Below are positions 10,350 to 42,251 of a stretch of 42,251 bases of DNA, in pieces (position 1 is the first letter of the stretch; every line of letters begins with the position of its first letter). The notes under the pieces are model-generated. The model was not told the DNA's origin and searched no databases. It saw nothing but the letters and a program-made list of their open reading frames with translations. The stretch is from a virus. The DNA lies in the IMG/VR virus record IMGVR_UViG_3300020438_000083, positions 1 through 42,251 of that record. One strand, given 5' to 3'. A program made the translations under genes and the position numbers.

Positions 10350-12371
10350 ATGACTACAAGCTTTTTCGTAAACAACGGAGGTAATACTTCTGCACGAGAG
10401 ACAATCTCTGCTGATCTTACTGCCTCTACAAATTCAAAGAATGATGCAGAAAAATATGCAGTACACCCGGAAGATGCAACCTACACTTTAAGCGATGGAG
10501 TAACCACGGGAAAGAGTGCTCTGCATTACCAGGCAAAAGCAGAAGACAGCCAACTAGCTGCTGCTCAGTCTGAGGCAAACGCAAGTGCTTCGGCAGGAAT
10601 AGCAAACGCTGCTAAACTTGCAGCTCAGGCAGCAGAAGCAGCCGTGTCAAGTGCATCCTCTGGATATGTTACTGAAACTGGAAGCCAGACAATTAGTGGT
10701 GTCAAAACCTTTACAACTAACCCGGTGTTTAGCTCTGGATTAACAGTGGCATCTCTTGTTTCAAATGGGGCAGTTACTCCCGATAGTATTGGCATGGCTG
10801 ACGGTAAAATAATAGGCTTTGGTGCTTCTGAGGATAGAGGTAATAACTGGAATGGTGTTGCTCAAGGTAATCACTTTGACTTAGAAATACGTCACGATGG
10901 TTCTAATAGTTACATTAAAGACTTTGGCACTGGTAATCTTGCTATTGAGGCGGCTGATTTATCATTAAGAGATGACAGTAATAATAGACGAGTTTATTGT
11001 ACTGACGGTGCTAGTGGTTCGGTTGCTTTATATTATGGTGATAGCTCAAGTGGCTCTAAGCTAGACACAGCTAATACAGGTGTAAACGTAACAGGTAAAT
11101 TAACATCTTCAAGCGGTATAGACATAACCGGCGAAATCAAAGGCGATACGCTTGATATTGACGGTGCAGTAGATATTGATACAGGCAATAGTAACTTCGA
11201 TGTCAACACTGGCTCTGGTGTTGCGTTCTTTACGTCATCTAACATTGCAAGACAGTTTATAATAACGTGCGAGAACGCTACTGACACCGCAGCACCGGAC
11301 TTAGTATTAAGAAGAAAAGGCTTAGTTTCTGGCGATGAGAATTATAGTGCAGGTAATATACGTTTTGAAGCCCCAGTAAACGAGACAGATACAAACTCTA
11401 ACGAATACACTACGGGTATGCCTTATGCAATCATACAGTCACAGGTTAAAGATAACGCAGCCGGTTTAAACACTAGAGCTGATGCTGATGCTGTACTGAG
11501 ATTTCTTGTGCAAGACGGTGACAACACAGCGGCAAACAAAGAACCTTCTGAGAAGTTAGAGATTCATAAGGACGGTATAACCGTAACAGGCACTATAACT
11601 GCTGATGGCCTTACAATGCTAGACAGCGAAAAAATTACTCTAGGTACTGGTGGTGATTTAGAAATTTATCATGATGGTTCAGATTCTATTATTACAGAAG
11701 CTGGAAGCGGTACTGGTGATCTTTTAATACGAGGCAATAACTTAAAGCTACAAAAAGGTGACGGTGCTGAAGATTATTTAGTAGCCACTATGAATGGTAG
11801 TGTAGCTATAAAGCATGATAGTGCTACAAAACTAGAAACATCAAGCGGTGGCATAACCGTAACAGGCACAGCCTCATCCGATAAAGTTGAAGTAGGTAGC
11901 CCGGTAACAACAGGAGCAGCCGTTTTAGCGGTTGAAGCTGACACAAGCTCGCTAAACCCAGTGTCAATTAGTAACAGCAGAAACACTGCATCTACAGATT
12001 ACTCAATTATATTTTATAGAAATACTAATATAGTTGGTTCTATACAAACAACCTTATCTGCAACTTCTTACCTGACAACCAGTGACTATCGTTTAAAAAA
12101 CAATGTTACATACGATTGGGATGCAACCACCAGGTTAAAGCAGCTTAAGCCTGCCAGGTTTGAATTTGTTTCTGAGCCAGGTGTAACTGTAGATGGCTTC
12201 CTGGCCCATGAGGTTAGCGGAGCAGTTCCTGAAGCCGTAACAGGAGTCAAGGATGAAACTGATGACGCAGGATATAATAAATACCAGGGAATTGATCAGT
12301 CTAAACTTGTTCCCTTGCTTGTAAAAACAATTCAAGAATTAGAAGCCAGGATAACAGCACTAGAATCATAA
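10350..12371 (+). CDS. Tail fibre protein with C-terminal S74 intramolecular chaperone
   Basis: The protein has 673 residues. Residues about 1-100 carry an Ala-rich coiled-coil stretch (SEANASASAGIANAAKLAAQ). The middle holds beta repeats of two kinds: GITVTGT-like strands, and LEIYHDGS...GTGDLLI / LEIRHDGS...GTGNLAI units. The last 100 residues are a peptidase S74 chaperone domain (TSDYRLKNNV, then DGFLAHEV and a helical end), which trimerises the fibre and normally cleaves itself off before the Ser-Asp. This is a likely host-recognition fibre. Two exact 17-base DNA repeats lie at 11577-11593 and 11853-11869 within the strand repeats. Confidence 0.9.
   Translation: MTTSFFVNNGGNTSARETISADLTASTNSKNDAEKYAVHPEDATYTLSDGVTTGKSALHYQAKAEDSQLAAAQSEANASASAGIANAAKLAAQAAEAAVSSASSGYVTETGSQTISGVKTFTTNPVFSSGLTVASLVSNGAVTPDSIGMADGKIIGFGASEDRGNNWNGVAQGNHFDLEIRHDGSNSYIKDFGTGNLAIEAADLSLRDDSNNRRVYCTDGASGSVALYYGDSSSGSKLDTANTGVNVTGKLTSSSGIDITGEIKGDTLDIDGAVDIDTGNSNFDVNTGSGVAFFTSSNIARQFIITCENATDTAAPDLVLRRKGLVSGDENYSAGNIRFEAPVNETDTNSNEYTTGMPYAIIQSQVKDNAAGLNTRADADAVLRFLVQDGDNTAANKEPSEKLEIHKDGITVTGTITADGLTMLDSEKITLGTGGDLEIYHDGSDSIITEAGSGTGDLLIRGNNLKLQKGDGAEDYLVATMNGSVAIKHDSATKLETSSGGITVTGTASSDKVEVGSPVTTGAAVLAVEADTSSLNPVSISNSRNTASTDYSIIFYRNTNIVGSIQTTLSATSYLTTSDYRLKNNVTYDWDATTRLKQLKPARFEFVSEPGVTVDGFLAHEVSGAVPEAVTGVKDETDDAGYNKYQGIDQSKLVPLLVKTIQELEARITALES
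11577..11869 (+). repeat. Direct repeat inside the tail fibre gene
   Basis: ATAACCGTAACAGGCAC occurs at 11577-11593 and again at 11853-11869, in frame and encoding the repeated ITVTGT strand. Such in-frame repeats could allow deletion or exchange of fibre modules. Confidence 0.8.
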
Positions 12372-17528: not shown

Positions 17529-17702
17529 ATGGCACATAAAGATTACTACGAAGTATACGTTTGTCCTACTTGCCATCGAGATGATGGTCTCACCCAAGCT
17601 AACGATCAATATCAACACTACGGCTACAGTAAATACTGTTTCAACTGTAGTCGTCCATGCAACCATGAGGTTGTAGTTTACAAAGAGGGAGATTTAAAAT
17701 GA
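17529..17702 (+). CDS. Small zinc-ribbon protein between attP and integrase
   Basis: The 57-residue product starts at ATG 17529, nine bases after AAAGGAG. A longer in-frame start at 17472 would lie inside the inverted repeat and lacks a good site. CPTC and CFNC pairs (C-x2-C ... C-x2-C, plus one more Cys) form a likely zinc ribbon, with aromatic residues between. It overlaps the integrase start by four bases, so the two are coupled. Position suggests an excisionase-like or regulatory role, but zinc ribbons also occur in phage takeover proteins. The function is unknown. Confidence 0.7.
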   Translation: MAHKDYYEVYVCPTCHRDDGLTQANDQYQHYGYSKYCFNCSRPCNHEVVVYKEGDLK

Positions 17703-18532
17703 TTACACTTACAGATTTTATCAGCCGTGAAAAAGCTAGACTATGGTCCGGCAAGCATCTACAGGATGTAACTTTTCAACTTAACAGGTTCTGTAACTTT
17801 AATAACTACGGCGACCGAAGCCTGGACAGCTTTGTTGCACATGATATCCATGAGTTCCAGGAGCATCTGATTGGCAACGGTTTAGCAAAATCTACAGCTA
17901 ATCGTTATAACGCTGCTATCTCGAAAATATTCGACCACGCTGTAAAAGGCGAGGTTATCAACCACGCACCCAGGTTCAACTGGTTCAAAGAAAAAGGCAA
18001 CCGTATCCGCTATTTTACATCTAGCGAGATTAAGCAGATCGAAGAGTTCTTTGGAAATCATAAGCATTCCTGGATGAAACAGATGTTTATCATAGGCATC
18101 AACACCGGGATGCGTTTAGGTGAGATTACTCAGATTGGCGATACTGCTCATGTAGAGACTGATGCAGAGGGCAGCGTTTGGCTGTACTTACCGCAAACTA
18201 AAAACGGAGACGAAAGATATGTACCGCTTAATAAGCCTGCCCAGAAAGCAATACAAGAGCTTGGCGGTCGTGTTCTTGACCACTACAGTCATCGTAAGTT
18301 CTACAATGCCTGGGATGACTGTCGCTATGCCGTGGCTAAAAATGACGAGTCGTTCGTCTTTCACGTTTGCAGGCATACCGCAGCATCCAGGTTAGCAAAC
18401 GATCTTGGAACACAGACTATACTTATTGGAGCGTTGTTAGGTCATAGGTCTGAGCAGACTACTCGCAAGTATGTTCACGCTAAGCCTTCTACGCTGCAAG
18501 ACATCGCAAAGCAATTAGGTAAGGTGGCATAA
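17699..18532 (+). CDS. int: Tyrosine integrase
   Basis: This 277-residue site-specific recombinase would join attP to the host tRNA-Asn site. An N-terminal SAM-like core-binding domain covers about residues 1-95. Catalytic residues are Arg139 (TGMRLGEI), Lys168 (QTKNGDERY), His222 and Arg225 (HVCRHTAASR), His249 (LLGHRS) and the nucleophile Tyr258 (RKYVHA). All are present, so the enzyme looks active. No clear arm-binding AP2 domain precedes the core-binding domain, so it is a compact integrase. It is coupled to the zinc-ribbon gene upstream, and the next frame starts at its stop. Confidence 0.95.
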   Translation: MITLTDFISREKARLWSGKHLQDVTFQLNRFCNFNNYGDRSLDSFVAHDIHEFQEHLIGNGLAKSTANRYNAAISKIFDHAVKGEVINHAPRFNWFKEKGNRIRYFTSSEIKQIEEFFGNHKHSWMKQMFIIGINTGMRLGEITQIGDTAHVETDAEGSVWLYLPQTKNGDERYVPLNKPAQKAIQELGGRVLDHYSHRKFYNAWDDCRYAVAKNDESFVFHVCRHTAASRLANDLGTQTILIGALLGHRSEQTTRKYVHAKPSTLQDIAKQLGKVA

Positions 18533-19402: not shown

Positions 19403-21889
19403 ATGGCTAAGATCCGTGGTAACGAAACTGATGAACTACTAAGGGAGTACAACGCTCTCGATAAAGGACGTGAGAGATACTTTGACCGTGATGGTCGTGT
19501 TAGTCTTATGTCCATTAAAAATATTCCACACGCATTGATCAAAGATGCTCTGCCTAGAGTTACGAAGTCCTTACATGAGAAGCTTGGCGACCAAACATCG
19601 GAAGGTGCTGGTCGTCCTTTTTCATGGAAGAAAGACTTACAGGCGGTAGACATAGACCTGATTGCTTATCTAGGAATGGCTACCTGTATGGACGGTGTTG
19701 GAATGAATAAGTCTATGACTTGGGCATTAACCAAGATAGGCAAGCGTATTGAGCTTGAGATATGGGCTAAAGAGCTTCGTGAGTTTAATAAAAAGCTATA
19801 CGACAGAGTTGAGTCTAAAGTTACCAGTGATCACTCCTCAGAAAGATACAGGCTTAAGGCAGCTAAAGCTATTGCCAGGAAAGCTGGTTTTGAGCTAGAA
19901 CTTTGGACTGACGAAAGAAGAGTCAAGGCTGCATCTCCGGTGTTAAATTCTATCTTGGCTGACAGTAGGTGTTTTGAGATATGGTCTATTATTAAAAAGG
20001 GTAAAACCAGGAAGTTTATAGGATTGACTGGTGAAGCTAGTGCATTGATTGCCGAGCTAGAAGCTGATGAGTCCTGGTTGCAGCCAGTGTACTGTCCGAT
20101 GATAGTACCTCCTAGAGATTGGGACGGTATGCATACTGGAGCTTACCTGGATGATGCTGTAAGAGCACAGGTTGATTTGATCAGGTTTAATACGCCCTGG
20201 CAAAGAAACTACACGGTCAATAATAACATTGCTAATATGCCTTACATAAAAGCACTTAACCATATACAAAGAACGCCTTATGTAATTAACGAAGAGGTTT
20301 TGGCTGCTGTTAAATGGGCCTGGACCGAAGACGTTGAGATTCCAAACTTCCCCAGGCGTAAGTATGTAGAGAGACCAGTGTTTCCCGACAACTGGGAGTT
20401 CCTGGAGCCTGAAGATAAAAAGCTTTGGCGTATCAGTGCCAGGGATGTGGTAGTTAGGAACCGGCAAATTGATGGTGCTAGAGCTGTTATGTTTCAAGAC
20501 CTTAAAACCGCCGATGAAATGGTAAACTTTGAAGAGTTCTTTCTGCCGCACAACTTTGATTTTAGGGGCCGGGTATATCCGATACCTCATTTTTGCCATC
20601 ATCGAGATAGTCATGTCAAAGCTTTGTTTAAGTTTAAAAACACTGAGCCAGTAGATGAGCAATCTTCGCTTTGGCTTGCTATACACCTGGCTAACACTGG
20701 TGACTTTAACAAGATTAGTAAAGAGAGTTTTGACGATAGGCTGTTATGGGTTGAGCTAAATAAGCAGGACATTATTGATGTTGCAAGAGACTGGAAGTCT
20801 ACTGTTGATTACTGGTCTAAAGCAGATAAACCATTTGAGTTCCTGGCAGCTTGTGTTGAGATGACCGGGTACTGGGATTCACTAGAGAATAACACAGTAT
20901 TTTACTCAGGTTTACCTGTTGCCCTGGACGGTACAAACTCCGGTATTCAGCACTTTAGTGCTCTAGGTAGAAATACTGATGATGCTGCCCTGGTCAACCT
21001 GGTTCCTGCTGATAAACCTCAAGACATTTACCAGCGAGTAGCCGATGAAGTTATAAATCAGATCAAGGAAGATCCCTGTGATGAGGCCGAGCTGTGGCAT
21101 AAACACGGTGTAACCAGGAAAACAGTTAAACGTAATGTTATGACCTACGGTTATTCGTCTAAGCAGTATGGCTTCTTTGAGCAGATCCGTGAGGACCTGA
21201 TGAATCCGTTAACTGATGACGTGCTTACAGGTAAGCTGTCAGTTCATCCGTTTGGCGATGATCATGGATATGATGCTGCAAAGTATTTATCCAGGCATAG
21301 CTGGGAAGCGGTTAACAAAGTTATATCGTCTGCACAGAATGGTATGTCATTCTTTCAGCAATTGTGCGGAGCATTAGCACATGAAGGTAAGCATATGAAT
21401 TGGTTTACTCCAGTAGGATTTCCTGCGAGCCAGTTTTATCCGTCAAACAATTTCAAAAAGGTCAAAATCTACCTGTATGATCGTGAGGCTAAAATACCTC
21501 AGAGAACACAGGTAACTTTGAGAAGCCCGGATTACAACCGGGTTGATAAAAGGAAGAGCAAGACAGCAATCTCTCCTAACGTAATTCATTCGTTAGATTC
21601 CGCACACTTATTAATTACTGTGCTAAACTGTATTAAGAATGATGAAAATATGCCATTCTTTTTGATACACGATAGTTTTGCGACTACTGCTGCACAAACG
21701 CAGAAGTTGTACGAGGTAATTAGAGAGAGCTTTATAGAGATGTATTCAACTGATAGTTGGTACGAGTATCTAAAACGCCAGGTAGAAGCACAGCTCGATA
21801 ACCCAGAAACAAACCGGGTTCCAGAGTCGCCTGATCTTGGTGAGTTAGATTTAAACTTAATCGCTGAAAGCAAATACTGTTTTAGCTAA
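19403..21889 (+). CDS. Single-subunit DNA-directed RNA polymerase, T7 type
   Basis: This 828-residue polymerase transcribes phage genes from its own promoters. Motif A is VALDGTNSGIQHFSALGRN, with catalytic Asp509 (T7 Asp537). Motif B is VKRNVMTYGYSSKQYGF, with Lys576 and Tyr584 (T7 Lys631 and Tyr639). Motif C is FFLIHDSFATT, with His756-Asp757 (T7 His811-Asp812). It is a little shorter than the 883-residue T7 enzyme. GAGGAGA precedes the ATG. The N-terminal promoter-recognition part is diverged, consistent with a promoter unlike that of T7. Confidence 0.97.
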   Translation: MAKIRGNETDELLREYNALDKGRERYFDRDGRVSLMSIKNIPHALIKDALPRVTKSLHEKLGDQTSEGAGRPFSWKKDLQAVDIDLIAYLGMATCMDGVGMNKSMTWALTKIGKRIELEIWAKELREFNKKLYDRVESKVTSDHSSERYRLKAAKAIARKAGFELELWTDERRVKAASPVLNSILADSRCFEIWSIIKKGKTRKFIGLTGEASALIAELEADESWLQPVYCPMIVPPRDWDGMHTGAYLDDAVRAQVDLIRFNTPWQRNYTVNNNIANMPYIKALNHIQRTPYVINEEVLAAVKWAWTEDVEIPNFPRRKYVERPVFPDNWEFLEPEDKKLWRISARDVVVRNRQIDGARAVMFQDLKTADEMVNFEEFFLPHNFDFRGRVYPIPHFCHHRDSHVKALFKFKNTEPVDEQSSLWLAIHLANTGDFNKISKESFDDRLLWVELNKQDIIDVARDWKSTVDYWSKADKPFEFLAACVEMTGYWDSLENNTVFYSGLPVALDGTNSGIQHFSALGRNTDDAALVNLVPADKPQDIYQRVADEVINQIKEDPCDEAELWHKHGVTRKTVKRNVMTYGYSSKQYGFFEQIREDLMNPLTDDVLTGKLSVHPFGDDHGYDAAKYLSRHSWEAVNKVISSAQNGMSFFQQLCGALAHEGKHMNWFTPVGFPASQFYPSNNFKKVKIYLYDREAKIPQRTQVTLRSPDYNRVDKRKSKTAISPNVIHSLDSAHLLITVLNCIKNDENMPFFLIHDSFATTAAQTQKLYEVIRESFIEMYSTDSWYEYLKRQVEAQLDNPETNRVPESPDLGELDLNLIAESKYCFS

Positions 21890-33334: not shown

Positions 33335-35095
33335 ATGCCGATATTACCCATGAGAGACTTAGGTAAAGTCGGAGTAATAGCTGATCCGTCTGCGTATGAG
33401 TTACCTCCAAATGCATTTAATCGTGCAAACAACGTGGTTTTTAACAACGGTCATTGCGAAAGAGCACCCATCTTTAAAGAAGTTTTTCCAGCACAAGTAG
33501 CCATTACTGTTGGGACTATTATTTCTCAAACTGAAACAAGTGGCGTTGATACTTTTTATGTCGCAGATAGAGATTACAATGTTTACAAGTGGGTTTATCC
33601 AAACTTTACAGACCTAACAACAGCTAATCAGCAGTACTTAAGTACCACTACGACAAGCACAACAGACGTAACACCAATGACCTCAACAGCTCTTGCTGAT
33701 GTTATTTACATTAACAAAGGTGACAGGCGTCCTATCTACAAGCTGCCAAGCGAAAACTTTTTTCGTGAGCTTTATCCAACAGCAGGTGCTCCAAACAGTC
33801 CTACATCTACCTGGGGATCCTCAAGTGATGTATGGAAATGTCAGTCATTGAGATCTTATGGTGATTTCTTAATAGCACTAAATATGAACGAGGGTGCAGC
33901 CGGAGATTTTGCATCAAGAGTTCGCTGGTGTGATCCTGTTACTTCTGGATCTGCTGCGGTATCTTGGGACGCTTCGGACGCAACAACTTTAGCTGGTTTC
34001 AATGATTTAATACAGATTAATGGTGGCATTGTTGATGGTCTAAGCCTGGGTAATCAGTTTATTATTTACAGCGAAGACCAGGTATGGCTAATGGACTTTG
34101 TTGGCGGCCAGTTTGTGTTTAATTTTAGACGCCTGTTTACTGATGCAGGTTTGTGTAATCACAATTGTGTCGTAGAGGTTGAAGGGAGTCATTACTGTTT
34201 TGGCAAAGATGATATATATGTTCACAACGGAACTCAGAAGCAGAGCATTTGTAACTCTATTGTTAGAGATTTTATATTTAATAACCTAGACTCTGCTAAA
34301 TTTAATTATAATTTTGTTCATCACGACCTACGTTTTAAGAAAATAATGTTTTGTTATTTTTCGAGCGATGAAGATGTTAACTATGATAAAGCAAACTATG
34401 TAAATAAAGCTGCTGTCTACAGTTATTCTGAAAACACCTGGAGCTTTATGGATTTACCTAATTTAACAGCTTCCGGTGTTGGTAATTTATCTGCTGTAAT
34501 CAATTATGATGCAACACAGACAGATGCCTCAGGTTCGTCTGTAGATCCTACTTATGAATCTATTGGCGGAACCTACCAGGATACAGCAGGATCTGTAAAA
34601 AGACATTCTTTGTTTGGTACTAAATCAATTAGAATAGACGCATCTGTTGCAACGTATCCAGTTCCTGCAAATAACACTTACCACGGCCTAACAACCGATT
34701 CTCTTATTTGTTTAGACTCCTTAAAAGACCCGGCAGTTGTAGCACAGTATAAAAGCCAGTTTAATTCTCCGGTTATTTTAGAAAGAACTGGAATCGATAT
34801 GGATAATGCAGGAATGGATTTAAGAACGTATAAATCTATTACTAAACTCTATCCACAAATTGATGTGTTTGACGATTTTGGTACTACTGTCAACATTGCA
34901 ATAGGAGCACATGATTTACCGCACTCTGACCCGGAGTACCCTACTACAGTAGCGTTTAATCCGCTTACAGATTACAAAATAGATGTAAGAGCTGCCGGAA
35001 GATACTTAGCGTATAAAATAACGCTGGATAGTGCTGATAAATATTTTTCATTAACAGGGTTTGATGCCGAGTTTATGGCTCTTGCTAAGAGGTAA
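33335..35095 (+). CDS. Tail nozzle / tubular protein (P22 gp10 or T7 gp12-like role)
   Basis: This 586-residue protein begins MPILPMRDLGKVGVIADPSA and has AFNRANNVVFNNGHCERAP, an opening shared by many podovirus nozzle proteins. A long beta-rich, propeller-like body follows (LGNQFIIYSEDQVWLMDFVG; GKDDIYVHNGTQKQ). These proteins cap the tail below the adaptor and hold DNA until infection. The ribosome site is TTTGAGGATA. The family is inferred from motif style and size. Confidence 0.8.
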   Translation: MPILPMRDLGKVGVIADPSAYELPPNAFNRANNVVFNNGHCERAPIFKEVFPAQVAITVGTIISQTETSGVDTFYVADRDYNVYKWVYPNFTDLTTANQQYLSTTTTSTTDVTPMTSTALADVIYINKGDRRPIYKLPSENFFRELYPTAGAPNSPTSTWGSSSDVWKCQSLRSYGDFLIALNMNEGAAGDFASRVRWCDPVTSGSAAVSWDASDATTLAGFNDLIQINGGIVDGLSLGNQFIIYSEDQVWLMDFVGGQFVFNFRRLFTDAGLCNHNCVVEVEGSHYCFGKDDIYVHNGTQKQSICNSIVRDFIFNNLDSAKFNYNFVHHDLRFKKIMFCYFSSDEDVNYDKANYVNKAAVYSYSENTWSFMDLPNLTASGVGNLSAVINYDATQTDASGSSVDPTYESIGGTYQDTAGSVKRHSLFGTKSIRIDASVATYPVPANNTYHGLTTDSLICLDSLKDPAVVAQYKSQFNSPVILERTGIDMDNAGMDLRTYKSITKLYPQIDVFDDFGTTVNIAIGAHDLPHSDPEYPTTVAFNPLTDYKIDVRAAGRYLAYKITLDSADKYFSLTGFDAEFMALAKR

Positions 35096-35100
35096 TTGCA

Positions 35101-36003
35101 ATGGCAGTAAACCAGAAAACAGACAGCTTGATAACGCAATACGTTAGAGGTTTATACCCACAAAACCCTGACGATTTACACAGGTTTCTACAGAACGAAT
35201 TTCTTAGGATAGATACGTTTGCTAATCAATCTAGCGAAACTGCTATTACTACGGCTGACACTGCTCCGGTTAACCCTAAACGTGGGATGACCAGATTTGC
35301 TGTAAATCCCTGGTATCCTATTGCAAGTATTACAACCGGAGATACCGGGTTAGTAGTTTATGACGGATCTGCCTGGCAGCAAGTAGGCTCTAGCAGCAAC
35401 AGCAGCAGCACGTTAGTTTTTACAAGTAATGCTGAAGCTACTTACAAAGCTAAAGAACACACTTTTGCTCATGGCTTAGGACAGGTTCCTGACCTGGTCC
35501 AGGTAGAATTAATCTGCACGACTGCTGAATTAGATTTTTCAGTAGGTGATATAATTGTAGCAACAGGATCACACGCACACGCATCAGAATCACAAAATAA
35601 TGAGCGTGGTATAAGTGTCATGAAAGACGCTACCAACGTGAGCGTAATGGTTGCAGAGGATGGGATTGGTTTGGTTGTTAAGCCAAGAATGACACCGGCT
35701 GCTATCACGGGTGCATCATCAACCGGTCAGCAGATAACAGTTAATACCTCTAATGGATCTCAATACAACCAGGCAAGAGTTTTGATTGCTGGTTTCCAGG
35801 ATAATACATTAAACGGCGAGTTTACTGTAGATTCTACATCATCAACATCTTTCGTATACACGACATCTGGTTTTAGCAGCGGTAATTTGGGTGGGACAAG
35901 AACAGTCCAGGCTATTGGTAACAGTGCAAAGATAGGCGACACTGATGTTAATGGCGGGCTTTCACATTGGGACATAAAAGTTAAGGCTTTTGTATTTAGC
36001 TAG
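35101..36003 (+). CDS. Virion protein downstream of nozzle, tail-fibre adaptor-like, unknown
   Basis: The product is 300 residues. The N-terminal helical part (VRGLYPQNPDDLHRFLQNEF) precedes beta-rich segments, including GDTGLVVYDGSAWQQVGS, which resembles phage fibre and collar modules. There is a Ser/Asn-rich hinge (SSSNSSSTLVF). It starts five bases after the nozzle stop. It may link fibres to the tail or be a small adhesin. No family is certain. Confidence 0.65.
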   Translation: MAVNQKTDSLITQYVRGLYPQNPDDLHRFLQNEFLRIDTFANQSSETAITTADTAPVNPKRGMTRFAVNPWYPIASITTGDTGLVVYDGSAWQQVGSSSNSSSTLVFTSNAEATYKAKEHTFAHGLGQVPDLVQVELICTTAELDFSVGDIIVATGSHAHASESQNNERGISVMKDATNVSVMVAEDGIGLVVKPRMTPAAITGASSTGQQITVNTSNGSQYNQARVLIAGFQDNTLNGEFTVDSTSSTSFVYTTSGFSSGNLGGTRTVQAIGNSAKIGDTDVNGGLSHWDIKVKAFVFS

Positions 36004-36013
36004 GGAGTTGACA

Positions 36014-36616
36014 GTGGACACGCTTACTAAAGATAACTTCTTGCCTAACTTTACTAATTTTGAAAAACATTTAAAAACAGTAAGTTTTGATGGCGAAGTT
36101 AATCCTGTTGACGGTGTTTTATACCCGGACATATCAACCGATATACCAGGGCGTGTTTTAGATAGCATAAGAGAGTTTATAAATAAGTATTTTGATGTCC
36201 AGGAATATAGTATTCCGTTTATGAGACGAATGACTCATGGTCTGGTTGCTCCGCACCAGGCACACAGCGACAGGGTTATGGGAACTCATTCGGTTATGTT
36301 TTACCTAACAAACCCAAAAGGAAAATCAGGAACAGCTTTGTTAAAACATCGTGTTGAAAGCAGTGTTAAAGATTGTGGGGACGAGAACGCATTAAAATGT
36401 TTTGAAGACACTAATAACTACGAAGCGTGGGAAGAAATTGAAATGATAGCCATGAAGAAAAACCGGCTATGTATTTTTGATGCCGACAGATGGCATCGGG
36501 CAGAACCAGTCAAAGGATACGGTAGCAATAATGAAGACAGTCGTATTGTTTTGACCTGGTTTTTTACCGCAAAAGAGAGAGCATACAATGATAACTACGA
36601 GACTAGCAGGTATTGA
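36014..36616 (+). CDS. 2-oxoglutarate/Fe(II)-dependent oxygenase-like protein
   Basis: The 200-residue product starts at GTG 36014 after AGGGAG, ten bases after the previous stop. It shows the iron facial triad and 2OG-binding Arg in order: His84 and Asp86 (QAHSDRV), distal His161 (DADRWHRAEP) and Arg177 (SRIVLTWFF), in a jelly-roll pattern (HSVMFYLTNP). Such enzymes hydroxylate proteins, nucleic acids or small molecules. It is set among virion genes and overlaps the acetyltransferase by 29 bases. A protein target in the virion or host is inference. Confidence 0.82.
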   Translation: MDTLTKDNFLPNFTNFEKHLKTVSFDGEVNPVDGVLYPDISTDIPGRVLDSIREFINKYFDVQEYSIPFMRRMTHGLVAPHQAHSDRVMGTHSVMFYLTNPKGKSGTALLKHRVESSVKDCGDENALKCFEDTNNYEAWEEIEMIAMKKNRLCIFDADRWHRAEPVKGYGSNNEDSRIVLTWFFTAKERAYNDNYETSRY

Positions 36617-37055
36617 AGACGCAAAGAATGTATTACCATTACTAGAAGAGTTCTTTTTACAGACTAAACACCATATCGATCACGGTGTTCCCTGGATAGA
36701 AGAACAGACTAGCAAAGTATTAGACAACTTAATAAATCATTCTGAATCGGGCGTAATAATAGCCCAAGATAAAGATGGTAAAGTAATTGGAACGACAGCA
36801 GGTCTTAAAACCGATCTATGGTTAGCCCCGTGCAGCTCAGTAGGTGTCGAACTATTCTGGTATGTATATCCAGAGCATAGGAAAACAAGAGCAGGTTATT
36901 TGCTTTTTCAGGCATTAGAAGCCTGGGCAAAAGATGTTGGCTGCGATGCTTTAACAATGGTTGCATTGGACCATTTAGAAGCAGACAAGATTGCAAAGGT
37001 ATACAGAAGAAAAGGTTATGAACCAATCGAACGTGCATATATAAAGAGGTTATAA
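36588..37055 (+). CDS. GNAT-family acetyltransferase
   Basis: The 155-residue product shows the GNAT fold order: an N-terminal strand and helices (TRLAGIEDAKNVLPLLEEF), VIGTTAGLK, then VELFWYVYPEHRKTRAGYLL, the acetyl-CoA-binding loop and helix, and CDALTMVALDHLEADKIAKV with YRRKGYEPIE at the end. It starts inside the oxygenase gene and stops three bases before an ejection-protein gene, so it is expressed with virion parts. GNAT-like genes recur at this position in marine podoviruses. Substrate is unknown. Confidence 0.88.
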   Translation: MITTRLAGIEDAKNVLPLLEEFFLQTKHHIDHGVPWIEEQTSKVLDNLINHSESGVIIAQDKDGKVIGTTAGLKTDLWLAPCSSVGVELFWYVYPEHRKTRAGYLLFQALEAWAKDVGCDALTMVALDHLEADKIAKVYRRKGYEPIERAYIKRL

Positions 37056-37057
37056 AA

Positions 37058-38185
37058 ATGGCGGCAGTAACAGCAACAGTGGCGGCAGCAGGCATAGGAT
37101 ACAAAGCCTCCAAAGACGCTTCAAAGGCAGCAAAAAGAAACACAGATAAAACAATTGCTGCAAACAAAGCTGCATCTGATAAACAGTACGATGCTCAAAT
37201 GGCTGGCTTTAATTTATCAAAGCCTTATTTTAAGGATATATACAGGGACGCACGGACTGCTAGAGATGCAGCATCAAGTGCAGGTCCTTACCAGGGTACG
37301 ACCTATGCAACGATGGACCCAAGAACTCGCCAGGGTTTAGAAACACAGTTTGACGATGCAGTAAACAACCGTAATACAGCAATGGGGATAGCGGATGCTA
37401 CCTCTGGTTTTGCTAACAATGCGGTAGACCTCTACGGTATGGCAGGCCAGGATAATCTAGCTGGTGCAATGGAATACGCTACTGGGGATCGTTATGATAA
37501 TCTAATGCAGGCGGCAATGCGTGATCCTTATAGAAATTTAACAGAAAACACGCTAACCGGGATTGATGCTTCTGCTTCAAGAGCTGGTAACATGAATAGC
37601 TCAAGAGCAGGTATTGCTGATGCTATGGCATTAAGAGATTACCAGGACAGGTCAGCAGATACTGGTGCAGCAATTCAAAGCGATCTTATGAATCAGTACA
37701 TAGACCAGAAAAACAATCAGTTTTCTAACATGACTACTGCTAATAACAATCTTGCTGGCTATTTTGGCGATGCTATGAATATGCAAAGCGGTGCTACAGC
37801 CAACATGATTGGTGCAGGTAATGCGTTCCAGGCAGAAAACCAAGGAGTCTTTACTGACCAAGCTCAGCAATACGAAAATAAGCGGATGGATAATATAAAC
37901 CTAATCGGTGCTCAAGGTAATATTATGAGCGGAGCACCTACTCAGGGAAGTGTATCCAATCTGCAATATCAAAACCCAGGAAACTTATATGATCCTAAAT
38001 CAGCAGGCATAAGCGGTGCTTTGAGCGGAGGCATGGCGGCCTATGATATGATGGGGCGTCCTAATTTATTCGGCGGTAGTCAACCAGCAAACCCGATTAC
38101 ACCTTCAATGTGGAGTAATGCTTATGCCAATAAAAGCACAGTACAGCCGCCTGGTGTTGACCTAAATTTCGTAGGAGCAAGATAA
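37058..38185 (+). CDS. Internal virion (DNA ejection) protein A
   Basis: The 375-residue product has an Ala-rich, mildly hydrophobic N-terminus (VTATVAAAGIGYKASKD) followed by long polar, Ala/Asn/Gln/Gly-rich helical stretches. That composition is seen in small ejection proteins such as P22 gp7 and T7 gp14, which pass into the host envelope. It precedes another ejection protein and the giant one. Ribosome site AGAGGTT. Confidence 0.72.
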   Translation: MAAVTATVAAAGIGYKASKDASKAAKRNTDKTIAANKAASDKQYDAQMAGFNLSKPYFKDIYRDARTARDAASSAGPYQGTTYATMDPRTRQGLETQFDDAVNNRNTAMGIADATSGFANNAVDLYGMAGQDNLAGAMEYATGDRYDNLMQAAMRDPYRNLTENTLTGIDASASRAGNMNSSRAGIADAMALRDYQDRSADTGAAIQSDLMNQYIDQKNNQFSNMTTANNNLAGYFGDAMNMQSGATANMIGAGNAFQAENQGVFTDQAQQYENKRMDNINLIGAQGNIMSGAPTQGSVSNLQYQNPGNLYDPKSAGISGALSGGMAAYDMMGRPNLFGGSQPANPITPSMWSNAYANKSTVQPPGVDLNFVGAR

Positions 38186-38186
38186 A

Positions 38187-39218
38187 ATGACTCCAGACCA
38201 ACAATATCAACAATTACTGCAACAATATAACGGTAATCACCAGCTTGCTAGTTTGGCTATGTCTCAACCTGCAATGGCTCAGTATTTATCTACGCCTCAA
38301 CAAGATCCTAATGTTAGCCCGGAATCTTTACGACAGCAGTTTAACCAGGCACAGGCGTCTGATTCTGGAGTATTAACCCAGCCCGGTAGTCTTCCAGCTA
38401 GTGGTGGTCCAGTAAGCCGTACTATACCGCAGCCTATACTTTCTCAGCCAGGTATGCCAGAGCGTCCAGAGTCTCCTACATACGGCGGCAATGTTGGTCT
38501 TAGTATGTTTCAAAGATCAATGGAAAATGCGGCAAAAGGTGGCCCAGGAATGTATGCAGGGTTAGCCCAGGGTTACAACGAGCATATGGGCAAGCAGTTT
38601 GAAGCTGATATGATTAAGTATAAAGACGAAATGGGCAGATACGACACAGGCGTTAAGAGATATAACGAAGCTGTTAAAAAGCAGAAAGAAAATAAAGAAC
38701 AGCTTGCAAAAGATTTAATTCCGTATCAAGAACAATTAGGTAAGCTCCGAAACGTAAGAGAGCGAATGCAAGTCCAGGGCGGTGGTCTTACAGGTATTGA
38801 TGAGCTTTCTGATTTTAACAGGATAAAAGACAAGTTTGTTGATGAACCGGTAGCAAACCAGAGAAAGTTAACTAGAAGACTTCTTAACGATATTGGTGTT
38901 GACTATACGTTACTTAAGATTGCTCAAACAAAAGGTGCAATCTCTAACAAAGAGATGGACTTATTTATGACTCCAGTTCCTAACATGAACTCCTCTGAGG
39001 GTGAATGGGAGCTATGGCTGAACAAACAGATTCAGGCAATGGAAAGTACCATTATGAACATGGAAAGAATTTCCAGTGGACAGATGCAGCCGATACAGCA
39101 GGACTACAGCTCGCAAATAAACAGTCTACTTGCAGACAATCCTGCCACATCTTCAGATACTCCTGCATCGACTAGCAATGCTATCAAGATAGAAATCAAA
39201 GATGGCAAAGTTCAGTAA
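38187..39218 (+). CDS. Internal virion (DNA ejection) protein B
   Basis: The 343-residue product has a Gln-rich N-terminus (TPDQQYQQLLQQYNG), a Pro/Ser-rich linker and a charged helical centre (YKDEMGRYDTGVKRYNEAV). It has no membrane segment or enzyme motif. It sits between the Ala-rich ejection protein and the giant one, in the order often seen for three-part ejection machinery. Ribosome site TAGGAGCAAG. Confidence 0.7.
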   Translation: MTPDQQYQQLLQQYNGNHQLASLAMSQPAMAQYLSTPQQDPNVSPESLRQQFNQAQASDSGVLTQPGSLPASGGPVSRTIPQPILSQPGMPERPESPTYGGNVGLSMFQRSMENAAKGGPGMYAGLAQGYNEHMGKQFEADMIKYKDEMGRYDTGVKRYNEAVKKQKENKEQLAKDLIPYQEQLGKLRNVRERMQVQGGGLTGIDELSDFNRIKDKFVDEPVANQRKLTRRLLNDIGVDYTLLKIAQTKGAISNKEMDLFMTPVPNMNSSEGEWELWLNKQIQAMESTIMNMERISSGQMQPIQQDYSSQINSLLADNPATSSDTPASTSNAIKIEIKDGKVQ

Positions 39219-39236
39219 TACTTTTAGGATATAACT

Positions 39237-42200
39237 ATGGCTCTTTATCAAATTGGCAAGGGAACTTACGAGTTGCCGGACAACCTTGATCCTGAACAAT
39301 TGAAAAACTATGCCCAACAGGTATACGACAAATATGAAGCTACACGTCAAAGTGATTTTGGCTACGGTATCGATAGAATGCAGCAAGGTATCGGATATGG
39401 TATTGATGCTATAGGCAGAATGACAGGCAGCGAAACTGTTGAACAGTTTGGACGAGACCAGATAAATAGAAATCAACAGCAGATCGAAGAAGGAAGATGG
39501 TCTCCTGATTACGCAGGTAACTTCAGCGATCAAACAGGTATTAAAAATAAGTTTGGCTATGCCTTAGAGCAGCTAACTACTCAAGGACCACGGACAGGAA
39601 CAGCCCTAGTGGGCGGTGCAGCAACCGTTGTAGCAGGTATTTATTCAGTACCAGCAGCAGCTATAGTTGGCGGCGGTACGTTAGCATTAAACTGGGTACA
39701 GTCAACTGGTGAAGCAGCAGAAGAGACTGAAGAAAAGACTGGCGACTACAACGAATGGATAGCAGCCGGAACAGGTACTTTGGTTGCTCTTTTAGATAGA
39801 TTCGGGGCAGGTAAAGTTATACCAAAAGATCAGTTAATGAACATGACTGGCGATCAGCTTGTAAAAGAGTTGACTGAAAAAGGTTTTGGCGAAGCTGCGA
39901 CTGAGGTTGCCAAGAAAATAGGACAATCAGCTAAGTCTGAAATTGGTACTGAGCTGCTCCAGGAAGCTGCCATTGTAGGACAGTCAGCAGCCCAGGGCGG
40001 CGAATATACAACAGGCGAACTTGCCGACCGAGCTATAGACACAGCCGTTCTAGCCGGTACTCAGGGTGGTTTAATACGAGGAGCAGGCGAAGGCGTAAGA
40101 ATTGTTGCAGGCGACTCCCAGCAAACTAAGTTTGACAAAATGGAAACTGCTTTGCAGCCGATTCTAGGCCGTGAACGTGATCCTACAAACCTTGATAGCG
40201 AAGCTGAGTATAGACGTGCTCAGACGATTATGGATGCTATAACAAAAGCAAGAAATGGAGATTCAAAAGCAGCTAACGAAGCTTTGAAATTTATTGATCA
40301 ATCTGCTGCGGATGCATCACTAGCTAATCGACTACAAACAATATCTCAGTCCGGGCCTGTTGAAGGAAAACAAACATCTTATGACTTAAAAGATGTTGAA
40401 ACTCAATCTAAAACAGGTTCTAAAGCTGTTGTTGAGCAAGCACATAAAGATATTGTTGGAGAAATAAAAGCTAGAGAAAAGGTATTATCTAAGCAGTTAA
40501 AAGGCACAAAAGAAGAGCCTAGATTCCAGGTATTAATGGAGCGTATACTTGCAGAAACAGGTATATCTTTATCTAAAAACAAAACTAAAAACTATTTAAC
40601 AAAACAAAACTTTGAAGCTGTTGCTGAGCTTGTAGGTAATACTCAGGAAGGGCAAGAACTGTTAAATTTAATGAGAGAAGCTAACTCTCTATCTAACTTA
40701 TATGGCGAAGGATTGGTCGGAGGTATATCTAAATATACTGACCAGTTTAATCCGCTAGGAATAAATACCGGGTATGACTCCGGTAGAGCTGTAGCCAATA
40801 CAGCCAGGATAATTGGCTCCGTGGCAGCCGGTGCATCTACTATGGGTGCTTCTACAGCAGTCCAGGCTGCAACAGTTGGAGCTGGTAGAGTTTTAGGCAG
40901 AGGTAGCCGAAGCAATGTAGAAAACTTTATTAAAAACAATATAGATGGCAGACCTTTAGAATCTCAAAAGCCTCCAGAAGTCAGGAGTATTGTTGACGAC
41001 CAGGAAAAAGCAAATGCAGACGCACGTTTAGCTGCTGAAGTAAAACAAAGAGAAGCAGAAGAAAACGCAAGACAGAAAGCTGAAGAAGCAGCAACCGAAA
41101 AGGCTGCAATAGAAGCTGAAAACAGACAAAGTGTAAAAGACAACGATCCTCCAGTTCCTACCAGTCCACAAGGTACGCTAGAAGCTGCCACCGGTCTTGA
41201 TAGAACTATGGTTGCTCGTGCATTGCGGATGCTAGAAGGAAAAGGAGCCTCAAAAAGATTACGCCAGGCTATCCAAGAGTATAAAACTTCGGTCGATATT
41301 GGCGGTAAGATAAAAGGCAAGATGCTTAACAATTTAATTCGTAAAGTAAACGGATTAGCTAATCAATATCCAAACGTAATAACCCGGATAGCCCAGCCTG
41401 ACACTGGTGCGTTTCCTAATTACGTCCAGGAACAAGAACGAGTTTCTTACAAAGAAAGTGAAGCATACGCTCGTGGCGTAGAGGCAAACAATAACTTTGC
41501 TAAAGCACTTACAGATGAGCTTGATGCAGATCAATCTATCGAGCCTGTTGTTAAAGCACAGATTGGCCGTGTTCTTCTTGATTTTAGTATGCCATTAAAT
41601 CCTGACCCGGTAACTCGTATAAATCAGATTATGGCTAGTGTGTCAGAAAACATTTCTCCTGCTTTAATCGATAAATACATAACGCCATACGCTGAACGTG
41701 TGATGCGTCAGCAAGGTCAAAAGCCTATTGATAGAGAAGACTCCCGTGTTGTACCTGTACCGTTCGGTAACGAGCGTATGCAGGGTATATTCGGTGTTAA
41801 TGATCCTACTGAAGGCGGCAACTACATTAACCTTGACGATAATAATGCAGATGTTACTGGAACTAGCTACACCGGTGGTACAGTTTCGATTGTAGACGGT
41901 AAACCTGTCCTGGAAACTAATGACATCCCTTCAAATCCTGCTACTAAAGATTTAGGATGGAAAACCAAGGTAAATCTATTTAAGAAAAAAGCTGGATGGT
42001 CTTGGGTAGATACTCCACGAACAGAAGAAACAATTGTATCTACTGAATCTCGTGGCAAGCACCATTATTCTCTTGCAACAGATTTTCAAACGCCAGTTAC
42101 CCTGGAAACATACCCTAAGCAAAAAAGCGAACCTCGCATGAGGCCTTCAACTTATGGTGATGTAATCCTGGGAAATAAAGTAGGGACGATTAGTGTCCGT

Positions 42201-42251
42201 GGCAAGCCCCACCCAGTCTATGACACAGTTACAGTTGTTCCTAAAGACCAG
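39237..42251 (+). CDS. Giant internal virion (ejection) protein, N-terminal part
   Basis: This is the start of the 1,867-residue protein completed at 1-2687. It is open to the window end (1,005 codons). It starts ATG 39237 after TTTAGGATA. A hydrophobic Gly/Ala-rich stretch (about 121-153, GTALVGGAATVVAGIYSVPA) and a second Ala/Gly-rich stretch near 515-560 could enter membranes. An Ala/Glu/Lys coiled coil (REAEENARQKAEEAATEKAA) lies near 600-635. Such polyvalent proteins in marine podoviruses replace T7 gp15/gp16-like ejection proteins. The frame crosses the contig join without a stop. Confidence 0.8.
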   Translation, partial: MALYQIGKGTYELPDNLDPEQLKNYAQQVYDKYEATRQSDFGYGIDRMQQGIGYGIDAIGRMTGSETVEQFGRDQINRNQQQIEEGRWSPDYAGNFSDQTGIKNKFGYALEQLTTQGPRTGTALVGGAATVVAGIYSVPAAAIVGGGTLALNWVQSTGEAAEETEEKTGDYNEWIAAGTGTLVALLDRFGAGKVIPKDQLMNMTGDQLVKELTEKGFGEAATEVAKKIGQSAKSEIGTELLQEAAIVGQSAAQGGEYTTGELADRAIDTAVLAGTQGGLIRGAGEGVRIVAGDSQQTKFDKMETALQPILGRERDPTNLDSEAEYRRAQTIMDAITKARNGDSKAANEALKFIDQSAADASLANRLQTISQSGPVEGKQTSYDLKDVETQSKTGSKAVVEQAHKDIVGEIKAREKVLSKQLKGTKEEPRFQVLMERILAETGISLSKNKTKNYLTKQNFEAVAELVGNTQEGQELLNLMREANSLSNLYGEGLVGGISKYTDQFNPLGINTGYDSGRAVANTARIIGSVAAGASTMGASTAVQAATVGAGRVLGRGSRSNVENFIKNNIDGRPLESQKPPEVRSIVDDQEKANADARLAAEVKQREAEENARQKAEEAATEKAAIEAENRQSVKDNDPPVPTSPQGTLEAATGLDRTMVARALRMLEGKGASKRLRQAIQEYKTSVDIGGKIKGKMLNNLIRKVNGLANQYPNVITRIAQPDTGAFPNYVQEQERVSYKESEAYARGVEANNNFAKALTDELDADQSIEPVVKAQIGRVLLDFSMPLNPDPVTRINQIMASVSENISPALIDKYITPYAERVMRQQGQKPIDREDSRVVPVPFGNERMQGIFGVNDPTEGGNYINLDDNNADVTGTSYTGGTVSIVDGKPVLETNDIPSNPATKDLGWKTKVNLFKKKAGWSWVDTPRTEETIVSTESRGKHHYSLATDFQTPVTLETYPKQKSEPRMRPSTYGDVILGNKVGTISVRGKPHPVYDTVTVVPKDQ
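42154..42251. repeat. Terminal overlap (second copy)
   Basis: This is the right-hand copy of the 98-base overlap with bases 1-98. It carries T at 42230 where the left copy has C at 77. The reading frame that starts at 39237 is open to the last base and continues in phase from base 3 of the window. Confidence 0.9.

Follow-up and report, generated by a model that had tools for sequence, protein, structure and literature searches.

The window, that is, the whole stretch of DNA analyzed here (42,251 nt), is an entire IMG/VR viral record. Its ends carry a direct terminal repeat of 98 bp (positions 1–98 and 42154–42251, one mismatch) and a gp16-like ORF that extends from 39237 onward resumes at the start of the window, which points to a probably complete genome of about 42,153 bp. 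A tyrosine integrase gene (17699–18532) shortly precedes a T7-like RNA polymerase gene (19403–21889), an order that suggests a possibly temperate T7-like phage. Elsewhere in the genome, the C-terminal end of a fibre protein (10350–12371) resembles, by eye only, a self-cleaving S74-type chaperone. The genes of interest are part of a tightly spaced series in which tail, oxygenase, acetyltransferase-like, and ejection genes are all on the + strand:

33335–35095, + strand: tail/virion structural protein (phrog_3287, E = 4.6e-88)
35101–36003, + strand: 300-aa tail gene with a conserved N-terminal part of ∼92 aa followed by fibre-type residues 93–300
36014–36616, + strand: 2OG-Fe(II) oxygenase (2OG), 200 aa, GTG start (PHROG and Pfam matches, active site, predicted model)
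36263–36271, + strand: HSD iron-binding motif of the 2OG (H84 and D86), in invariant or nearly invariant alignment columns
36494–36496, + strand: distal iron ligand H161 of the 2OG
36542–36544, + strand: 2OG-binding R177 of the 2OG
36588–36616, + strand: overlap of the 2OG and GNAT reading frames, 29 bp
36588–37055, + strand: GNAT-family protein, 155 aa, ATG start (PF00583 above cut-off; phrog_1249, E = 2.9e-24)
36879–36896, + strand: acetyl-CoA pyrophosphate loop of the GNAT, R98-K-T-R-A-G103, lacking the canonical central Gly
37058–38185, + strand: DNA ejection (internal virion) protein (phrog_4287, E = 1.8e-8), kept in relatives
38187–39218, + strand: second ejection-group protein, conserved behind the ejection gene in relatives

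The two ORFs and their 29-base overlap lie where the preliminary description placed them, between tail (phrog_3287) and ejection (phrog_4287) genes. Ten base pairs separate the end of the upstream tail gene from the start of the 2OG gene and two separate the GNAT stop from the start of the ejection gene. The GC content of the two genes is 39% (versus 42%) and their codon use is ordinary; given this, we do not claim a recent import on the basis of their slightly AT-richer composition.

The 2OG gene is preceded immediately 5' of its GTG start at 36014 by AGGGAG; a TTG at 35990 is a possible alternative start but would cause the gene to overlap its upstream neighbor. The product matches phrog_1644 (E = 2.8e-14) and Pfam 2OG-FeII_Oxy_3 (PF13640; E = 4.5e-5), the latter with a score of 24.8 bits that is below the curated cut-off of 27. 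The HxD...H iron triad and the Arg that characterize the superfamily are present, and H84, D86, H161, and R177 vary little or not at all across 32 sequences (the window and 31 relatives from viral contigs). An AlphaFold model (pLDDT 83.5) has the double-stranded beta-helix fold and its best structural match is a PiuC-like oxygenase (3dkq_C; Z 14.7, 160 aligned residues, rmsd 2.7 Å), followed by others that include PHD2 (Z 14.2) and OGFOD1 (Z 13.8), with 2OG oxygenases throughout the match list. The cut-off is diagnostic rather than chemical, and the fold and active site outweigh the low Pfam score, making membership in the superfamily sound. The confident model thus predicts an oxygenase fold of the hydroxylase type, a fold that does not give the substrate, and the protein belongs, as a divergent member, to a phage family already known. 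The PHROG label of that family, "minor coat protein", was not taken as evidence of function.

The GNAT-family protein scores well above the curated cut-off of PF00583 (E = 7.6e-10, 39.5 bits versus 20.7). The preliminary description credited both enzymes with their key residues, which holds for the 2OG but only in part for the GNAT, because the canonical pyrophosphate loop R/Q-x-x-G-x-G/A reads RKTRAG in the window. The window protein and all 34 aligned family members lack the central Gly, and most retain the Arg and the final Gly/Ala; the departure therefore marks the whole phage family. R98, the loop-end Gly/Ala, E111, W113, A114, and Tyr139 are well conserved, and Y139, the Tyr of the LYxRxGY motif, does not vary in an alignment of four members; GNATs usually employ this Tyr as their general acid. 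Departures in the pyrophosphate loop occur in some active GNATs. With the loop Gly gone and the Tyr kept, catalysis is possible but not assured and, since the loop is not canonical, we file the product as a GNAT-family protein and not as a proven acetyltransferase. The protein adds a member to a phage family that was already known, and its gene position is likewise a known one. At one locus of the family (L123:4564–5447), two GNAT genes of the same family are in tandem.

The presence of two overlapping genes in one operon, between tail and ejection genes, led the preliminary description to suggest coupled modification, and it tied this proposal to conservation of the pair in related genomes. 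On such a reading, the enzymes would modify virion proteins in succession or be packaged and injected together. The pair is not conserved in any of three surveys, which covered relatives by tail gene, GNAT loci, and 2OG loci. The relatives are 80 viral contigs, many of them fragments, that share the upstream tail gene (33335–35095, phrog_3287), plus the contig L004; the product of this gene has 54–59% identity to its counterparts in L003, L004, L015, and L016. In none of about 80 nearest relatives does the slot, taken from the conserved 92-aa tail protein up to the ejection gene, contain a 2OG or a GNAT of the window families. Family searches of the whole records of 39 relatives likewise yielded neither PF00583 nor phrog_1644, both of which were detected in the window itself. 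At about 33 loci with GNAT-family genes (28 further loci plus known phages, inspected in the fetched stretches), no 2OG of the window type is beside the GNAT, and of 32 GNAT-family records only that of CRP-810 matches 2OG-FeII_Oxy_3, at a distance of about 24 kb. Conversely, a GNAT of the window's family is absent from all 80 loci of related 2OGs, and PF00583 matches occur in only two of 40 2OG records, where contig coordinates put them about 7 and 13 kb away from the 2OG. Scans with single sequences returned no close relatives of the 2OG among viral contigs or of the GNAT among bacterial and archaeal genomes, and so revealed no copy of the pair in a prophage; the viral-contig scan with the single GNAT sequence returned one locus, and an initial GNAT alignment had too much diversity to serve as a scan query. 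The overlap is not special to the pair either, because most GNAT-family genes start inside the end of the preceding gene, whatever its kind, by 1–31 bp in most cases. Coupled action is accordingly improbable and the weakest of the readings that involve the virion. On present evidence, the pairing appears particular to this phage, and nothing suggests that the two proteins act in one pathway.

The contents of the slot vary among relatives. A cupin-like protein of 166–208 aa is present at 21 loci (L003, L004, L016, L023, L030, L049, L070, L092, and others), a protein of 98–104 aa is present at 11, L015 has a 239-aa protein, and in most remaining relatives nothing was recognised. The cupin-like proteins have the PHROG label "short tail fiber protein", which we did not take as functional evidence, and no Pfam match. 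In the L015 protein, the string AYRLMRKNGF looked GNAT-like by eye, but the candidate was set aside because it has no profile support. The 98–104 aa proteins are encoded just before the ejection gene (L018:7880–8176, L019:2549–2854, L022, L032:6853–7164, L034–L039, and L060:3393–3698) and have no significant Pfam or PHROG match. A model based on six of these sequences (pLDDT 86), however, matches GNAT structures almost exclusively, with a spermidine acetyltransferase as the best match (2fl4; Z 9.8 over 92 residues) and a Z of 8.8 to the minimal acetyltransferase AcrVA5. The model predicts a minimal GNAT fold that annotation misses, which indicates that a GNAT fold is recurrent at the slot in this phage group, in sequences that ordinary searches do not relate. 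The slot is a swap site, and we suggest that the 2OG and GNAT of the window are separate passengers rather than a coupled pair.

The neighborhoods of related 2OG genes bear on the substrate. In 26 of 80 related phage 2OG loci, a gene for a collagen-like fibre (long, Gly-X-Y, with mostly Gln at Y) ends 3–51 bp before the 2OG start, although near-copies inflate this count and, after dereplication, the association involves five of 32 2OG genes in one clade. Loci with the fibre gene followed by the 2OG gene include L124–L126, L133–L139, L141, L144, L145, L148, L150, L167, and L170–L177. A collagen-like gene anywhere in the locus was found in 29 of 80 2OG loci versus 0 of 107 control loci. This association appears to be separate from any link to a GNAT. 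A scan of the window revealed no collagen-like gene and no Gly-X-Y run exceeding four triplets, and the gene directly upstream of its 2OG encodes a different fibre-type protein. In a tree of 2OG proteins, the window 2OG is placed beside the collagen-associated clade, but its branch is so long (9.45) that the placement is unreliable and was not used.

The upstream protein (35101–36003) is composite. Its N-terminal ∼92 aa match nearly all of the 80 relatives, and residues 93–300 are in none of them at the same place; their only matches are to a fibre protein of L089, at its end (5.6e-15), and a weak one to the tail fibre of a Pseudomonas phage (2e-3). This pattern suggests that residues 93–300 are an acquired fibre-type domain. 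In marine phages, Fe(II)-oxygenase genes are listed among the host-recognition genes of variable islands (PMC3909814). Together, the collagen-fibre link elsewhere, the fibre domain upstream, and the island report make a fibre or other virion protein no more than our leading guess for the substrate. The 2OG could instead act on a nucleic acid or small molecule, given that annotations of phage 2OGs often name DNA repair or modification (e.g., PMC11288001) and several relatives adjoin helicase genes. But PiuC-like and prolyl hydroxylases head the structural matches and the window gene sits among virion genes, making a nonprotein substrate very improbable.

The GNAT gene is between a tail gene and the first ejection protein gene, the position of gp13 in T7. 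Members of the family occupy similar positions in other phages: the phrog_1249 GNATs of ICBM2 and SIO1 are between tubular protein B and internal virion protein B, that of CRP-810 is between tail and downstream morphology genes, that of L001 is between tail and ejection-type genes, and that of Pam1 adjoins the needle gene. At further loci, neighbors are packaging, tail, ejection, and adaptor genes, and the members in K1-5 and Nerthus are positioned before the portal gene. Because a single T7 gp13 sequence gave no match to the GNAT family by hhalign or family HMM, the correspondence to T7 gp13 is one of position. We know of no catalytic role for T7 gp13. Its position, the reduced GNAT fold in the slot of relatives, and the loss of the central loop Gly in all family members would be consistent with a purely structural protein, a noncatalytic assembly chaperone in which the fold was retained but acetyl-CoA binding was lost. 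The conservation of R98, the loop end, E111, W113, A114, and Tyr139, the occurrence of active GNATs with deviating loops, and the strong Pfam score argue otherwise, and we regard this reading as quite unlikely. The GNATs of SIO1 and the ICBM phages were proposed as counterparts of T7 gp13 by Bischoff et al. 2019 (PMC6775973). In T7-like phiPsa17, a gp13 homolog is encoded, but the eleven proteins found in purified particles do not include it (PMC4517105), as would befit an assembly factor left out of the virion. By analogy, this would speak mildly against packaging of the protein at this position in the window.

Alternatively, the two products could be late effectors directed at the host, in which case the GNAT would acetylate host proteins in the manner of Rac or AcrVA5, the 2OG would hydroxylate a host protein, and their place in the operon would reflect timing alone. 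The precedent is Rac, a GNAT of LUZ19 (gp28) that triggers cleavage of the alpha subunit of host RNA polymerase; mutating its predicted acetyl-CoA pocket abolishes this cleavage (PMC7552054). Like the window gene, the Rac gene adjoins structural genes; it is at the head of the LUZ19 structural cluster and overlaps the first gene. The K1-5 and Nerthus members are at a Rac-like position before the portal gene and the content of the slot changes freely from relative to relative, a behavior expected of accessory genes. However, Rac keeps the canonical loop Gly (RNSGVV) that is missing in the window (RKTRAG), its position before the portal differs from that of the window gene, and its similarity to the window's GNAT family is marginal at best (E = 0.0026). 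Moreover, many members of the family adjoin ejection or tail genes and relatives swap in a reduced GNAT fold at the same slot. Host-directed action is the strongest rival, yet we consider it unlikely.

We favor, with a probability of about 0.5, a reading in which the 2OG and GNAT are independent, presumably late genes that occupy one variable slot, flanked by tail and ejection genes; the GNAT would serve as an assembly helper at the gp13 position and the 2OG as a hydroxylase of a fibre or virion protein. Under this reading, the GNAT holds the position where many short-tailed phages keep a GNAT or a protein with a reduced GNAT fold, and it most likely acts in virion assembly by handling or loading the ejection proteins whose genes follow; its catalysis may be weak or absent. 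The most likely target of the 2OG, which is of the protein-hydroxylase type, is a virion protein from the same operon, fibre-type or other, and the first candidate is the fibre-domain protein encoded 10 bp upstream (35101–36003). A virion-related role is thus plausible for each. A broader proposal, doubtful at present, is that short-tailed phages in general use the gap between their tail and ejection genes to house ejection-assembly factors with GNAT folds, from full-size to minimal, and that a fibre hydroxylase was added to that site here. The story of coupled modification gives way to a testable one of a swap site with cryptic GNAT folds that annotation misses. Those folds bear on the nature of unexplained gp13-type assembly proteins, and the link between 2OGs and collagen-like fibres points to protein hydroxylation of phage fibres.

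Among the closest known systems, PHD2, OGFOD1, and PiuC-like oxygenases have a fold in common with the window 2OG (Z of about 14) at 10–15% identity. The phrog_1644 2OGs of T4-like cyanophages and those at fibre-gene loci, some of which adjoin tail fibre genes, share the fold, the HxD...H...R residues, and a similar size with the window 2OG, but identity is at most 27–32% and the window 2OG has no collagen-like neighbor and is followed by a GNAT. The Zobellviridae GNATs (SIO1 gp26.2 and ICBM2 gene 38; phrog_1249) share the family, the tail/ejection slot, and the loop departure with the window GNAT, at 26–30% identity; they have no 2OG upstream, and the window phage is of another lineage (phrog_3287/phrog_1216 type). 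T7 gp13 (Phage_T7_Gp13, phrog_308), located between gp12 and gp14, is like the window GNAT in position.
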